A stretch of 64,000 nucleotides of DNA from Methylophaga sp. (GTDB lineage: Bacteria; Pseudomonadota; Gammaproteobacteria; Nitrosococcales; Methylophagaceae): contig DRHW01000002.1 of NCBI GenBank assembly GCA_011053005.1, positions 62,001 to 126,000 on the forward strand, written 5' to 3'. The translations under genes and the position numbers were made by a program. Of the stretch, positions 33,840 through 39,749 are shown in pieces (positions within the stretch are counted from its first letter, which is position 1; each line of letters opens with the position of its first letter). The notes beneath the pieces are model-generated. The model made no database searches and was not told the DNA's origin. It saw only the letters and a list, made by a program, of their open reading frames with translations.

Positions 33840-34343
33840 TTATGGTGAAATTGTCATTCGTTTAGTCACCATGAACTCGTGTTCATCTTTCTTGGCAACA
33901 ATAATAACGTCCCAAATACCAGGTAAATTAAAACTAACATCAGCGCCATACATTCCAGGATTGCTTGGTTCCATTTCTACTGCAAAATCTGCCCTTGCAT
34001 CAGAGGGACGATAGGCGTGCAAAGTCACAGAATCTAAATCTAAAGCAGCTGAATGCTTACCTTGTATAAGGACTTCATATTGTTGATGTTCATTAACACG
34101 TGTATTAGCCGGTGTCATAATCTGACCTGTCCAACCAAGTGCTTTTTGTTTTTCAACCAGCTCGTGTGCTTCGATATAATGCTCGCCACGCTCATAAAAA
34201 TCTTCTACCACCAAGTTTGGTGGTGAAGAAAAAGCAAGATAGATAAAAATACCATTCGCCGTTAAAAACGTAGCCAAGAACAATAGCATTCCTAACACCC
34301 ATGGATTTTTAAACGCTTCTTTATTACTTTGTGAAATATTCAT
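33840..34343 (-). CDS. ccoH: cbb3 oxidase assembly protein CcoH (FixH)
   Basis: This 167-residue FixH/CcoH family protein has an N-terminal membrane helix (about residues 15-38, WVLGMLLFLATFLTANGIFI). A periplasmic beta-rich domain follows, with VVEDFYERGEHYIEAH and GMYGADVSFNLPGIWDVIIVA. CcoH is needed for stable cbb3 assembly and acts with CcoI. The gene sits 22 bases after ccoG and before ccoI, in the standard order. Confidence 0.9.
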   Translation of the reverse strand: MNISQSNKEAFKNPWVLGMLLFLATFLTANGIFIYLAFSSPPNLVVEDFYERGEHYIEAHELVEKQKALGWTGQIMTPANTRVNEHQQYEVLIQGKHSAALDLDSVTLHAYRPSDARADFAVEMEPSNPGMYGADVSFNLPGIWDVIIVAKKDEHEFMVTKRMTISP

Positions 34344-34365: not shown

Positions 34366-35784
34366 TTATTTTTCAGGGCTCATAAACATACTTTTATAGC
34401 TTATGGTGCTAGTCGAGTTGTCTATAGTGCCCTTAAATACAATCGGAATAAGATCATCTGTTAACTTATCTGCAGGTACACGCACTAATGCGGTAACAGG
34501 CACAACTTTACCTGGTTCAACCGTCATATCAGTTAGTTCATGCAGAGTTGCCCCTTCAAGACCTTCTATTTCAAAATGGATCTTAATTGGTTTTTTGGTT
34601 TTATTAAGCAGCTTAACCGTATATTTATTTTGAATAGAACCGTCACTCAGCAAGATATATAAAGGTTGGCGCTCATGAACCACTTTGAATTCTGTAGCTG
34701 ATAAGTGGGTGAAACCATAAACAATACCCCCCAAAGCCATTAATAATATCAAACCGTAAATGATAACTCGAAAGCGTTTGTAAAGGGGGATTCGTGGCGC
34801 GTTATGATGCAATTCTTTGAATGAAGCATAGCGAATTAGGCCGCGTGGTTGTTTAACTTTATCCATAATGCTATCGCAGGCATCAATACACAATCCACAC
34901 GTAATACAGCCCTCTTGTTGGCCTTTACGAATATCTATTCCCGTAGGGCAAACCGCTACACAGACATTACAGTCAACACAACTTCCTCTTTTAGAAAAGT
35001 CGTCGCCTTTCTTTAGTTTAGCTCTTGGCTCACCTCGTTCTGCATCATATGAAGGCAATACGGTATCTTGATCATACATAACACCCTGCAGACGTGCATA
35101 AGGACATAACCAGAAGCATACTTGTTCACGCATAAAACCAGCAAACAGATACGTACCGCCAGTAAATGATGCAATAATAATGATCGCCGTTAGTGAAACT
35201 TGGAAGCTGAACATATTATCCCAGAGTTGATAAGCATCAGTGAACCAAGCAACAAATGAAATACCGGTAAAGAGCCCAATCAGTAACCATAAGGTATGCT
35301 TTAGAATTTTTCGGCTGAGTTTATCAAATGTCCAAGGCGCTTTTTCGAATTTCATTGCCTTTTGTGGTGTATCACCTTCAATCTTACCTTCAATCAAGGT
35401 GAAGATATCCGTCCAGACTGTTTGAAAACAAAAGTAGCCACAAAAAACACGGCCAGCGACACTGGTTACTGCAGCAAGTAGAATGGCAAAAAATAGTAAT
35501 GTTAGGGATAACATCCATATATCTTGGGGATAGATAGTGACATGGAAGAGATTAAATTGACGCTGTGGTAAATCAAATAAAATAGCTTGAGAACCGTTAT
35601 ATCGAATGTAAGGACCTAAAAACAAAAGAGACCATATCGACATACCTAGCCATTTTAATGTTCTAAATCCACCGGGCAAACGTTTGGCAACGACCTTAAT
35701 ATCACCCGTATTAATACGCCACTCAGAGACATCTTTGTAAACATCATCAATATCAATATTTGGATTGTTTTTTACTTCACTCAC
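34366..35784 (-). CDS. ccoG: cbb3 oxidase accessory protein CcoG (RdxA/FixG)
   Basis: This 472-residue polytopic membrane protein contains two [4Fe-4S] ferredoxin-type clusters, seen in CVDCNVCVAVCPTGIDIRKG and CITCGLCIDACDSIMDK. The first helices lie around residues 40-60, 85-110, 160-180 and 195-215, and the C-terminal Ig-like domain follows a last helix near 340-358. CcoG proteins are reported to reduce Cu(II) for cbb3 assembly. The start is GTG with GAGAA upstream. A perfect TATAAT on the minus strand (35821-35816) may be its -10 element, but without a recognisable -35 hexamer. Confidence 0.93.
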   Translation of the reverse strand: MSEVKNNPNIDIDDVYKDVSEWRINTGDIKVVAKRLPGGFRTLKWLGMSIWSLLFLGPYIRYNGSQAILFDLPQRQFNLFHVTIYPQDIWMLSLTLLFFAILLAAVTSVAGRVFCGYFCFQTVWTDIFTLIEGKIEGDTPQKAMKFEKAPWTFDKLSRKILKHTLWLLIGLFTGISFVAWFTDAYQLWDNMFSFQVSLTAIIIIASFTGGTYLFAGFMREQVCFWLCPYARLQGVMYDQDTVLPSYDAERGEPRAKLKKGDDFSKRGSCVDCNVCVAVCPTGIDIRKGQQEGCITCGLCIDACDSIMDKVKQPRGLIRYASFKELHHNAPRIPLYKRFRVIIYGLILLMALGGIVYGFTHLSATEFKVVHERQPLYILLSDGSIQNKYTVKLLNKTKKPIKIHFEIEGLEGATLHELTDMTVEPGKVVPVTALVRVPADKLTDDLIPIVFKGTIDNSTSTISYKSMFMSPEK

Positions 35785-35878: not shown

Positions 35879-35908
35879 AAAAAAGCCGACATTACTGCCG
35901 GCTTTTTT
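35879..35908 (-). terminator. Terminator after the cbb3 structural genes
   Basis: AAAAAAGCCG (35879-35888) and CGGCTTTTTT (35899-35908) form a perfect 10-bp stem with a 10-base loop. On the minus strand it ends in a T-run, 18 bases past the stop of the small CcoM-like ORF. It separates ccoNOQP from ccoGHIS. Confidence 0.82.
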
Positions 35909-35925: not shown

Positions 35926-36048
35926 TTAGTTGTCTTGAGATTTATCTTCATCAACATGTTTCATTGCATAATAAATAAACGCACCTGTTGCAATAATCAT
36001 AGCAACGACACTTGCAATTACTGAAACTACGACCCAATCAATATTCAT
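35926..36048 (-). CDS. Small single-helix protein, probable CcoM-like cbb3 subunit
   Basis: This 40-codon gene lies between ccoP and the terminator of the cbb3 operon. It encodes a short N-terminus (MNIDW), one membrane helix (VVVSVIASVVAMIIATGAFI), an aromatic YYAMK boundary and an acidic, charged tail. The ATG has GGAGA eight bases upstream, and a terminator follows 18 bases after the stop, so it looks translated with the operon. Size, topology and position resemble CcoM, the fourth small subunit found in the Pseudomonas stutzeri cbb3 structure, which was also missed by annotation. Similarity is by layout, not a computed alignment. It could instead be an assembly peptide. Confidence 0.72.
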   Translation of the reverse strand: MNIDWVVVSVIASVVAMIIATGAFIYYAMKHVDEDKSQDN

Positions 36049-36100
36049 AATAAAATTCTCCATTTATGTAGGTCAATTCTAGACCCAACGCATAAAAATA

Positions 36101-37060
36101 TTATTGGCCACCGCCAAACTGGTGAACATAAACAGTTAATTTCTTAATATCTGTTTCGGATAAGCGCTCTGCTTCTGTACCGTCTAGTTCATCTGACCAA
36201 TCAATCTCATTAGGATCTTCACCATCAGCAATAGCATAAGCTTTAGCTTCTAGCATAACCGCTAATTTTTGGCTCCATTGTGGCATCACGGCAACGCGTG
36301 TTTGTTTATCATTAGCGTCATTCACACCATGCAGTATTGTTTTGCGAATTTCACTCTCTTCGCCTGAAAAACGCCAAATTTTATCTGTTAGGTTAGCCGA
36401 TCCCATTTCTTTAATGCCTTTAGCATCAGCACCATGGCATGCGAAACAACCTTTTGCCGTGAACAAAGCATGACCAGCTTCATTTTTTACGCCATTAGAG
36501 CTATCAATAACAAATTTAACTAATTGGTCAACTTCTTCTGGTTTCAACAATTTTTCATGTGCAGGCATCAGACCTTGACGCCCCTTAGCAATGCTCATTT
36601 GAATTTCATCAACTGTACCACCATACAACCAATCATCATCAGTAAGGTTTGGATACCCGGCTCCTTCAGCTGGAGCGCCACCTGCGCCATGGCAGGCTGC
36701 ACAGTTATCACCATAAAGCACTTTACTTGAACCGATAGCGTAGTTCAGCATTTCTTTATCAGCGAGAATTTCATCTACGCTCATTTTTGCAAGTTTATCT
36801 TCAAATGGTGCACGTTTAGCCTGAACTTTAGCTAAATCTTCTTTATACTCGCCAATTTGTGTCCAACCTAGCAAACCTTTAGTACTATCGTGTACAAGAG
36901 GTAGCGATGGGTAAAGAATAAAGTAAACAACAACAATTACCCCGCTCAAATACAGCGCATTCAACCACCAGCGAGGGCAAGGATTATCTAATTCACGAAT
37001 ACCATCCCACACATGGCCAGTGTCACCTACCTGCGTTGGTTCATTTTTATTATCTGCCAT
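36101..37060 (-). CDS. ccoP: cbb3 oxidase subunit III, dihaem cytochrome c
   Basis: This 319-residue membrane-anchored dihaem cytochrome c passes electrons to the cbb3 catalytic centre. The N-terminal CcoP block is seen in HVWDGIRELDNPCPRWWLNALYL, which leads into the membrane helix (about residues 35-55). Two haem-binding CxxCH motifs follow: CAACH (GDNCAACHGAGG) and CFACH (KGCFACHGAD). Axial-ligand methionines are plausible at GLMPAHEKL and VMPQWSQKL. The start at 37060 (MADNKNE) has GGAGA upstream and overlaps the ccoQ end by 11 bases. Confidence 0.95.
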   Translation of the reverse strand: MADNKNEPTQVGDTGHVWDGIRELDNPCPRWWLNALYLSGVIVVVYFILYPSLPLVHDSTKGLLGWTQIGEYKEDLAKVQAKRAPFEDKLAKMSVDEILADKEMLNYAIGSSKVLYGDNCAACHGAGGAPAEGAGYPNLTDDDWLYGGTVDEIQMSIAKGRQGLMPAHEKLLKPEEVDQLVKFVIDSSNGVKNEAGHALFTAKGCFACHGADAKGIKEMGSANLTDKIWRFSGEESEIRKTILHGVNDANDKQTRVAVMPQWSQKLAVMLEAKAYAIADGEDPNEIDWSDELDGTEAERLSETDIKKLTVYVHQFGGGQ

Positions 37061-37262
37061 CTTGTTTCTCCGATTTTCTTTCGTCTTCATCTATAAGCAT
37101 TGAACGATGAGATTCTAAGCTGTCTTTATTTTTAGGATTGAGTACCCAGAAATAAACAACGACCATTACTATAAACACGAATACGGTGAGTAGAAATCCA
37201 AACCAATCTGTGCCTGTCATTCCACTCCAATCCGTATGAAAATACTCTTGAAGTTTAGTCAC
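37050..37262 (-). CDS. ccoQ: cbb3 oxidase subunit CcoQ
   Basis: This 70-residue small membrane protein of the CcoQ/FixQ family is reported to stabilise the cbb3 complex. It has one hydrophobic helix ([20 protein letters not shown]) followed by [17 protein letters not shown], a typical CcoQ exit sequence, and a charged tail. The start is taken as GTG at 37262 after AGGG. An earlier TTG in the same frame, inside ccoO, is less likely. It overlaps both ccoO (8 bases) and ccoP (11 bases), which points to coupled translation. Confidence 0.88.
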
Positions 37263-37935
37263 GATAATCCCTACCTGGCTCAAATTTAACCATTGTGCCC
37301 AACACTTGTAGATAAGAAACTAAAGCTTGCATTTCAGTTTTACCTTCAACTGAAGCGGCTGCGCCATTAATCTGTTCATCCGTGTAAGGAACACCCATTA
37401 CTTTCATTGCTTTAACGCGTTTTTCTATACCTTTACCATCAATTGTCGCATGTTCAAGCCATGGATAATTCGGCATTACAGATTCTGGTACAACACTTCT
37501 TGGTGCACGCAAATGTTGATAATGCCAAGCATCAGAATATTTACCACCTACACGAGCAAGATCAGGCCCAGTTCGTTTTGAACCCCATTGGAATGGGTGA
37601 TCATATTTAGACTCAACTGCCAAAGAATAATGACCGTAGCGGTCTTTCTCATCACGGAAAGGTCTAACCATTTGTGAATGACACAAATAACAACCTTCTC
37701 GTTGATAAATATCACGACCAGCTAACTCTAACGCTGTATAAGGACGCACCCCTGACAACTCTTCATATTCAGGATGAACTTGATCTTCAAATGTCGTATT
37801 GAGATAGAACAAAGGAACAATCTCAACAATACCACCCACTGACACGACAATAGCTGTTGCTAAAACAAGTGCCCATACATTTTTTTCCAGCTTTTCTTGA
37901 AAAGTAACTGGTTTATTATCGTTGTGTTCAGACAT
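37255..37935 (-). CDS. ccoO: cbb3 oxidase subunit II, monohaem cytochrome c
   Basis: This 226-residue CcoO has an N-terminal membrane helix (about residues 18-42) and one haem c site CYLCH followed by [10 protein letters not shown]. Other family blocks are [23 protein letters not shown] split around residue 65, [20 protein letters not shown] and the methionine-containing [10 protein letters not shown]. It receives electrons from CcoP or a soluble cytochrome and hands them to the haem b centre in CcoN. It lies 13 bases after ccoN. Confidence 0.95.
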
Positions 37936-37948
37936 GCAAGACTCCTAC

Positions 37949-39373
37949 TTAAATATTAGCGGCAACAGCCATCTTTGCAGATGGATTTGCAATAGCTCTA
38001 CGAATAGTCACAGTAACGTTAAATAACATCACACAGGCGCCAGAGAAGAAAATCAACCCACCTACTGCACGCATCGCGTAGTACGGATGCATTTGAGCAA
38101 CTGACTCAACAAACGTATAAGCTAAATTACCGTAATCATCATAAGCACGCCACATGAGACCTTGCATAATGCCCGATACCCACATTGCTGTGATATAAAC
38201 CGCTGTACCAACCGTAGCCATCCAGAAATGTAAATTAACTAACTTAATCGAATACATTGTTGTACCCCATAAACGCTCTACCATATGGTAAATAGCACCT
38301 ATAGATACCATAGCAACCCAACCTAAAGCACCCGCATGTACATGCCCAATAGTCCAGTCAGTGTAATGAGATAATGCATTAACTGTCTTAGAGGCCATAA
38401 CTGGACCTTCAAAAGTCGACATCGCATAGAAAGCTAATGAAACAATCAAGAAACGTAAAATATAATCGGTACGTAATTTGTCCCATGCACCGCTCAGGGT
38501 AAATAGTCCGTTAATTGCCCCACCCCATGAAGGAATAATCATCGCTAAAGAAATAGCCGCGCCTAATGAACCAGTCCAATCTGGCAACGCAGTATATTGA
38601 AGATGATGAGCGCCTAACCATACATAACCAAATGTCAAAGCCCAGAAATGTATTACGGATAAACGGTATGAATAAATTGGACGGTTAGCTTGTTTAGGCA
38701 CGAAGTAATACATGATGCCAAGAAAGCCAGCTGTTAAGAAGAAACCAACAGCATTATGTCCCCACCACCATTGAATCATTGCATCTTGAACACCGGCAAA
38801 GATTGAATAAGATTTAAATAAATCAACAGGCAGCGCCAAGCTATTAATGACATGTAAATAAGTAATCATAATCATCATCGCTAAGAAGAACCAGTTAGCA
38901 ACATAGATGTGTGAAACTTTACGAATTGAGAGGGTCATGATGAAGTTAAAAGTATAAGATAACCATACAACCGCCAATAAAATATCTAAAGGCCATTCCA
39001 TTTCGGCATATTCTTTAGACTGGGTTAAACCTAGTGGTAAGGTAATTGCAAAACCTAGAATAACTAAGTTCCAGCCCCAAAAGGTAAACCATGCCAACTT
39101 ATCACTCCACAAACGCACACCTGATGTACGCTGTACGATGTAAAAAGCCGTTGCCATTAGTGTCGAGCCGCCAAAAGCAAAAATAACGGTGTTGGTGTGA
39201 AGTGGACGTAATCGTCCAAAAGAAATATACGGGTTATCAAAGTTCAAAACTGGCCATGCCAATTCAGAAGCGATGTATACCCCAATCCCCGTCCCTATTA
39301 CTAAGTATACGGTTGCCATATAGGCGAACCACTTAACTATTTGAAAACTATATTGATCTTGTTCCGCTTGCAT
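37949..39373 (-). CDS. ccoN: cbb3 oxidase subunit I (catalytic)
   Basis: This 474-residue, twelve-helix catalytic subunit holds haem b, the haem b3-CuB oxygen-reduction site and the proton path. Features include [18 protein letters not shown] with a haem histidine, [21 protein letters not shown] (CuB His region), [20 protein letters not shown] and [13 protein letters not shown]. The CcoN-type tyrosine lies within the helix around GYVWLGAHH. The start at 39373 has AGAAGG ten bases upstream; a GTG three codons earlier sits too close to that site. It is the first gene of the operon and has an FNR-like box about 135 bases upstream. Confidence 0.96.
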
Positions 39374-39749
39374 AGCGACCACACCTTCTCTCTATGAAAA
39401 ACACTATCTCGACATCTAAAATAAGTTAGAAATCTCGACTCCTTCCCTTCACACTTAATACATAATTATATTTTACAGCAAATATCACGCTTACTCCCAC
39501 TGTTTATCTGATCGAGATCAAACTATAGACAGAAAAGAGGATGACCTATGATTCGCTTCATACAAAAATTTATCGGACAATTCTCCTTACTTCGCTGCCA
39601 TGCGTCAAGCAAACCATAAATGTCTTCTTAGTTTTCTAGCGATTAAACCCTACACATCATATTGTTATAACACCTTGTTAACATTTCTTCTTTTCCTAAC
39701 ATTCTATAAAACCCGACATGCTTTGATTCATTCTTATCAAACTAAAATC
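39374..39749. other. Promoter region of the cbb3 operon
   Basis: This 376-base interval lies between ccoN and the upstream psiE-like gene on the same strand and has no convincing coding sequence (the longest small frame is about 23 codons). It holds the FNR-like box at 39508-39521. A second palindrome, TTTGAT and ATCAAA at 39722-39741, has the wrong spacer for FNR. The remainder is AT-rich. Confidence 0.6.
39508..39521 (-). promoter_or_regulatory. FNR/ANR-like binding site ahead of ccoN
   Basis: On the minus strand TTGAT-CTCG-ATCAG differs from the FNR consensus TTGAT-N4-ATCAA at one base. A GATATT at 39486-39481 fits a -10 hexamer at the distance expected for an FNR-activated promoter centred near -41. 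It would raise cbb3 expression at low oxygen. No FNR gene is in the window. Confidence 0.7.

Follow-up and report, generated by a model that had tools for sequence, protein, structure and literature searches.

We found a conserved 40-codon gene behind ccoP in a 64,000-nucleotide stretch of Methylophaga sp. DNA (hereafter the window), and its product can be read, with a probability of roughly 0.7 judged from sequence, as an operon-encoded, single-helix accessory subunit of the CcoM type that would stabilise the cbb3 oxidase. According to the available text of PMC8267372, CcoM is a single-helix subunit that the Pseudomonas enzyme needs for stability, not activity, and its introduction presents CcoM as a subunit that may be present in the oxidases of certain Pseudomonas species. 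A variant of this known small subunit that is encoded in the operon of one clade of cbb3 oxidases would be new. No operon-encoded ccoM was found in the available parts of the literature on CcoM, ccoNOQP, small genes close to ccoP and ccoG, and the Methylophaga cbb3 oxidase, which does not prove its absence from print. If the operon gene is the counterpart of CcoM, a fifth subunit has been overlooked throughout an entire clade of cbb3 oxidases, and both the models and the purifications of these enzymes lack a component.

A small gene at the end of the structural operon

The features of the locus are collected in Table 1. The small gene begins with the ATG at 36048-36046 and ends with the TAA at 35928-35926, and its 40-residue product is MNIDWVVVSVIASVVAMIIATGAFIYYAMKHVDEDKSQDN. 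A longer version of the frame was also listed, beginning five codons upstream at 36063 and encoding 45 residues. Because the upstream ATG is missing in relatives such as L004, L006, and L009, and because a GGAG precedes the downstream ATG by nine bases, 36048 is the likely translation start. Read by eye, the 20 bases upstream of the other family loci also contain GGAG. The gap between the ccoP stop and the small gene is 52 nt, and a predicted terminator stem lies 17 nt past it, which bears out the preliminary description of a 40-codon frame with its own ribosome-binding site between ccoP and the operon terminator.

Table 1. Features of the cbb3 gene cluster in the window
Feature	Position	Strand	Basis or remark
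ccoN	37949..39382	(-)	PF00115 4.9e-115
ccoO	37255..37935	(-)	PF02433 2e-84
ccoQ ORF, exact start uncertain	37050..37283	(-)	PF05545 20.7 bits, below cut-off 29
ccoP, FixP_N and two cytochrome c domains	36101..37060	(-)	PF14715 2.6e-19, PF13442 1.3e-18
GGAG, putative ribosome-binding site	36058..36061	(-)	9 nt 5' of ATG; sequence reading
CcoM-like small membrane protein gene	35926..36048	(-)	40 codons + stop, likely start 36048; after ccoP in 28/59 genomes; pN/pS 0.28
Predicted stem-loop terminator closing the unit of ccoNOQP and the small gene	35879..35908	(-)	own script
ccoG, first gene behind the terminator	34366..35784	(-)	PF11614 7.5e-26, PF13746 3.8e-38
ccoH (FixH), a different single-helix assembly factor	33840..34343	(-)	PF05751 1.7e-25

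The stem has 12 bp with one mismatch and a T-run at its end. It was found with our own script, run without a shuffled control, and it is not among the results of a consensus scan of the window, which gave a 5-bp stem at 36117-36104 over the ccoP stop. Stems with a T-run were observed 14-49 bases past the stop of the small ORF in 28/28 family loci and 38/45 loci overall, counts likewise made without a shuffled control. Between ccoP and the small ORF, terminator-like stems were seen in 6/45 loci (L023, L028, L039, L041, L048, and L049). In our reading, the structural operon ccoNOQP ends with the small ORF. Behind ccoH, the ORFs 33809-31377 and 31372-31166 resemble, by sequence and gene order, what we take to be ccoI and ccoS.

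The protein itself consists of a hydrophobic helix followed by the charged tail KHVDEDKSQDN, and one helix (residues 3-38) is the only feature of its single-sequence AlphaFold2 model (pLDDT 86.8); the description of one helix with a charged tail, made earlier from the letters of the DNA, holds. Among members of the small-ORF family, D4 is invariant and K30 nearly so, and D4 is also invariant in the wider 39-sequence alignment A3 described below. Like CcoM, this is a short single-helix protein with an acidic residue near the N-terminus and a basic residue after the helix. Searched alone against PDB sequences, Pfam, and NCBIfam, the window's protein gave weak matches at best, none of them reaching a curated Pfam or NCBIfam threshold. 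Its nearest named records are metagenome assemblies labelled Methylophaga, Piscirickettsiaceae, or Gammaproteobacteria, the best being Methylophaga sp. LH_M6 at 88% identity.

Small size, a single-helix topology, and a common operon are also what a drifted second copy of CcoQ (FixQ, PF05545) would have. This origin is highly improbable and was rejected, given that a separate CcoQ-like ORF is present and that the window's protein has no match to FixQ at E <= 10. In 44/45 loci, the stretch from ccoO to ccoP yielded a CcoQ-like ORF, and the profiles of the two proteins align with a probability of 20.2% over 16 columns only (hhalign score 18.9, one control set). The window's own CcoQ falls below the FixQ cut-off, and a whole-genome FixQ search returned nothing at E <= 0.001; the CcoQ of this lineage may therefore also go unnamed.

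Conservation within the window's family

The small ORF was found downstream of ccoP in 28 of the 59 genomes searched (its own included), every one of them a member of the window's family, which is represented by 36 genomes. The preliminary description had staked its reading on the frame being conserved after ccoP in relatives, and with 28/36 family genomes carrying it, it is. Matches at E <= 1 came from 30/59 genomes, including G003 and G011, where they fell in long frames that had no neighbouring ccoP. A ccoP match was obtained in 31/36 family genomes; 27 of these 31 have the small ORF, as does G024, in which the contig cuts ccoP. The next gene is ccoG in 26/28 family loci, while L007 reaches the contig end and no ccoG was found in L026.

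Pooled over 18 window-type sequences, pN/pS was 0.28 in the frame of the small ORF, compared with 0.47-1.49 in the five other frames, and variation was greatest at third codon positions and least at second positions. The small ORF is a real, conserved gene. Its length of only 40 codons would suit a chance ORF that is no gene at all, but the probability of this is practically negligible, being contradicted by the conservation after ccoP, by the pN/pS ratio, and by a terminator behind the ORF in every one of the 28 family loci. Its position just ahead of the terminator and ccoG would also suit a translated regulatory peptide or leader that controls how ccoG and the genes downstream of it are expressed. 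We regard this as very unlikely, since selection acts on the amino-acid sequence in this frame, copies unlinked to the operon exist, and in L026 the gene still follows ccoP although no ccoG was found downstream.

Four family genomes (G003, G010, G012, and G016; loci L123, L125, L126, and L127) have ccoP and ccoG with no such ORF between them. They belong to the window's genus, their assemblies measure 1.6-2.0 Mb, and their ccoP proteins form one tree branch. With these four as a natural comparison and an operon gene that could be cleanly deleted, the system would make a simple test bed.

Comparison with CcoM

For comparison, CcoM homologues were gathered independently of the operon genes, from 22 of 115 genomes in the order of G201 (taken as Pseudomonadales). 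All 23 CcoM sequences match the NCBIfam CcoM model (NF041600) at E <= 0.01. When the operon-gene alignment was compared with the CcoM alignment, hhalign gave a probability of 95.8% over 40 columns without gaps (E 7.8e-9 for one comparison), and trimmed alignments scored 33.2 (95.1%). In three sets of 100 alignments with permuted CcoM columns, mean scores were 12.2-15.9 and the largest 20.7-26.4, although the hhalign probability rose as high as 89% for single permuted alignments. Seven blocks of real helices from CcoG, CcoP, and CcoH, two of them overlapping, scored at most 16.2. By HMM score, column permutations reached the observed mean in 0/400 cases in five tests and in 2/400 in a sixth.

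Searches with the operon profile pointed the same way in part. On the 23 CcoM sequences it gave more than 11 bits for 14 and less than 7 bits for nine. In the 22 CcoM genomes, ccoM was the best six-frame match in eight and a lower match in one more, at E-values of 2.9e-4 to 0.67, three of them below 0.01; in the remaining 13/22 ccoM was unmatched, the best match lying elsewhere in five of them. Among 18950 NCBIfam models, CcoM was the one matched by most members of the operon family (3/39, best E 1.4e-4). The same proteins gave scattered chance matches of comparable E-value in Pfam, where no CcoM model was among the matches and the best was Syndecan at 3.5e-4.

The likeness is also visible in the residues. 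The chain of CcoM in the crystal structure of the P. stutzeri enzyme (5djq_N) has 36 residues against 40 here, and both proteins are a single helix with a Mx[VI]DxVV-like N-terminal motif, the pair S/T13-V14, and a basic residue after the helix; D4, V6, V7, S/T13, and V14 are common to the operon family and CcoM. Conversely, F20, G23, and D31, which are invariant or nearly so in the 23 CcoM sequences, are not conserved in the operon family (alignments A2 and A3). Gene location differs as well: the operon family follows ccoP, whereas the ccoM genes of the G201 order are unlinked to oxidase genes, none of which lay near ccoM in the 22 loci (fetched flanks of at most 1.5 kb on each side, two cut by contig ends). 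In G201, the neighbours of ccoM resemble, by eye, a hydratase gene and rapA.

Single-sequence and curated-model searches did not make the connection. The window's protein had no match at E <= 10 to either 5djq_N or the NCBIfam CcoM model, and no family member scanned reached the 40-bit cut-off of that model, the best relative scoring 22.2 bits. A single CcoM query run on 274 genomes of the class at E <= 1 did not return the operon genes; it found G201 at 2.2e-16 and otherwise only matches at E >= 0.01. The NCBIfam CcoM model run on the same 274 genomes found G201 over the cut-off and 0/28 operon genes at E <= 0.1. The profile search with CcoM sequences that the preliminary description had called for succeeded in part: the alignment-to-alignment match stood, while the single CcoM query and the NCBI model missed the operon genes.

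These misses, together with the absence of F20, G23, and D31 from the common residues, are what would be expected of a small cbb3-associated membrane protein unrelated to CcoM, either a helix of independent origin placed at the CcoM site or at another one, or an assembly factor absent from the mature oxidase. We consider such a protein unlikely, though with a probability that deserves weight. Neither the 300 permuted alignments nor the seven real helix blocks reached the score of the full-length ungapped match, ccoM came first genome-wide in 8/22 genomes, and the gene is grouped with the structural genes ahead of the terminator. The likeness to CcoM suggested at the outset thus finds support at the profile level, and the operon-encoded protein is probably of the CcoM type, distantly homologous to CcoM and outside the curated CcoM family. 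We call it a distant relative, not a textbook CcoM, because the window's protein alone was unmatched and no scanned member reached the cut-off.

Proposed role

The small gene would be co-transcribed as the last gene of ccoNOQP, ahead of the terminator and of the assembly genes from ccoG and ccoH onward, and the protein would be made together with the catalytic subunits. Going by its charges, it may insert into the membrane with the acidic N-terminus (D4) outside and the K/H-flanked C-terminus inside. The helix could then pack on the membrane part of the complex and keep the oxidase from falling apart once assembled, in the manner of the Pseudomonas stutzeri CcoM. Since the gene is grouped with those for the structural subunits, ahead of the terminator, we infer that the protein is made with CcoNOQP and stays as a stabilising helix. 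An analogous extra single helix, that of CcoH/FixH, is seen adjoining CcoN in the Rhodobacter capsulatus supercomplex, according to the available text of PMC7876108; in the window, ccoH is a separate gene.

Distribution and the ccoP clade of the carriers

Two profiles were run on the 274 genomes of the class: A1, built from the 28 family members, and A3, built from 39 sequences (20/28 family members, 16 of 17 class loci, and three later loci). A3 matched in 35/274 class genomes at E <= 0.01, its matches to its own member loci being by construction because those loci are in A3. In 28 of the 35 genomes, from 20 families, the gene lies between ccoP and ccoG, and 21 of these 28 had already been matched by A1, which holds family members only, at E <= 1. 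The remaining A3 matches comprise G119, where the contig ends at the gene, and six weak ones (E 7.5e-4 to 0.009), five of which fall within frames of at least 147 residues. As ccoP (FixP_N) matches in 157/274 class genomes, the small gene is present in a minority. For part of the class matches the regions 3' of ccoP were read, giving 92 loci that were mostly chosen because the first profile had missed them; three of these have the small gene by HMM score and one (L146) by eye.

In a sample of the phylum, 30/249 genomes matched; a single family outside the class, f231 of another class, accounts for 24 of them. We fetched 19 loci of that family; ccoP was readable in 18, and the small ORF directly follows it in 18/18. 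Among five weaker f231 matches, L288 and L290 also follow ccoP, and those at L286, L287, and L289 represent a divergent small membrane protein encoded immediately ahead of ccoN. At these last three loci the match to the single-helix protein starts 123-169 bases before the ccoN match, and ccoG is divergent on the other side. The L287 protein, the one of the three that was scanned, reached no Pfam or NCBIfam family cut-off. Plasmid records with ccoP matches were all below 60% identical.

Relatives of the small gene were also observed away from the operon, at L229:4308-4418 (G165), L231 (G177:C7:702677-702787), L232 (G381:C223:77403-77513), and L285 (G367:C1:599306-599407). The window's cco proteins were unmatched in the 3.5-4 kb fetched on each side of these four. 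G165 and G177 have an operon copy in addition to the unlinked relative. Against the NCBIfam CcoM model, the unlinked copies of G381 and G367 gave E-values of 1.5e-4 and 0.11.

A ccoP tree was made from chosen rows, 128/128 of which were kept; 15 of the 28 family carrier loci were included, and f231 was left out. In this careful IQ-TREE run, whose bootstrap had not quite settled, all 41 carrier ccoP rows grouped in a single 47-row clade, which had a support of 100/99 and was recovered in 100% of 200 bootstrap trees. The carrier label needs four changes on the tree, such as one gain and three losses. The six non-carriers of the clade are the four family genomes described above, L149, where ccoH directly follows ccoP, and L148, which lies near a contig end. 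On a measure of CcoP N-terminal hydrophobicity that is rough because start codons were not fixed, no hydrophobic stretch was seen ahead of the usual anchor in the 34/41 carriers where the conserved motif was found (largest mean 0.08), and 48/61 ccoP rows exceeded 1.3 in the clade holding the CcoM-bearing G201. The available text of PMC7876108 gives two predicted N-terminal helices for the CcoP of P. stutzeri and one for that of R. capsulatus.

We tentatively propose, at somewhat less than an even chance, that the cbb3 lineage with a single N-terminal helix in its CcoP had from early on a fifth structural subunit, a CcoM-type helix encoded in the operon, which is thus ancestral there and spans at least two classes of the phylum. 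The unlinked ccoM of Pseudomonas would then be a relocated descendant, and the unlinked relatives in G165, G177, G381, and G367 would record the move.

Other observations at cbb3 loci

With one mismatch allowed, the pattern TTGATNNNNATCAA, which we take to be the Anr/Fnr-box, has 20 occurrences in the window where 6.6 would be expected, a count reached in no shuffle. One such copy (with one mismatch) lies upstream of ccoN at 39508-39521 and was not used as evidence.

Different proteins occupy the site between ccoP and ccoG elsewhere. At four loci of the other CcoP clade (L091, L092, L099, and L113) it holds a protein some 90 residues long that carries the motif VLWPSFL or ILWVSFL; a Pfam scan of those from L092 and L099 gave no family at E <= 1. 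At two class loci (L100 and L110), a small single-helix protein of the DUF3149 type (PF11346) lies between the two genes. This is a separate sequence family, although similar in size and topology, and just one of the 39 members of the small-ORF family touches PF11346 (E 0.0054). The L100 protein matches DUF3149 at 27.6 bits, above the cut-off of 23.2, and the L110 protein is alike by look only.
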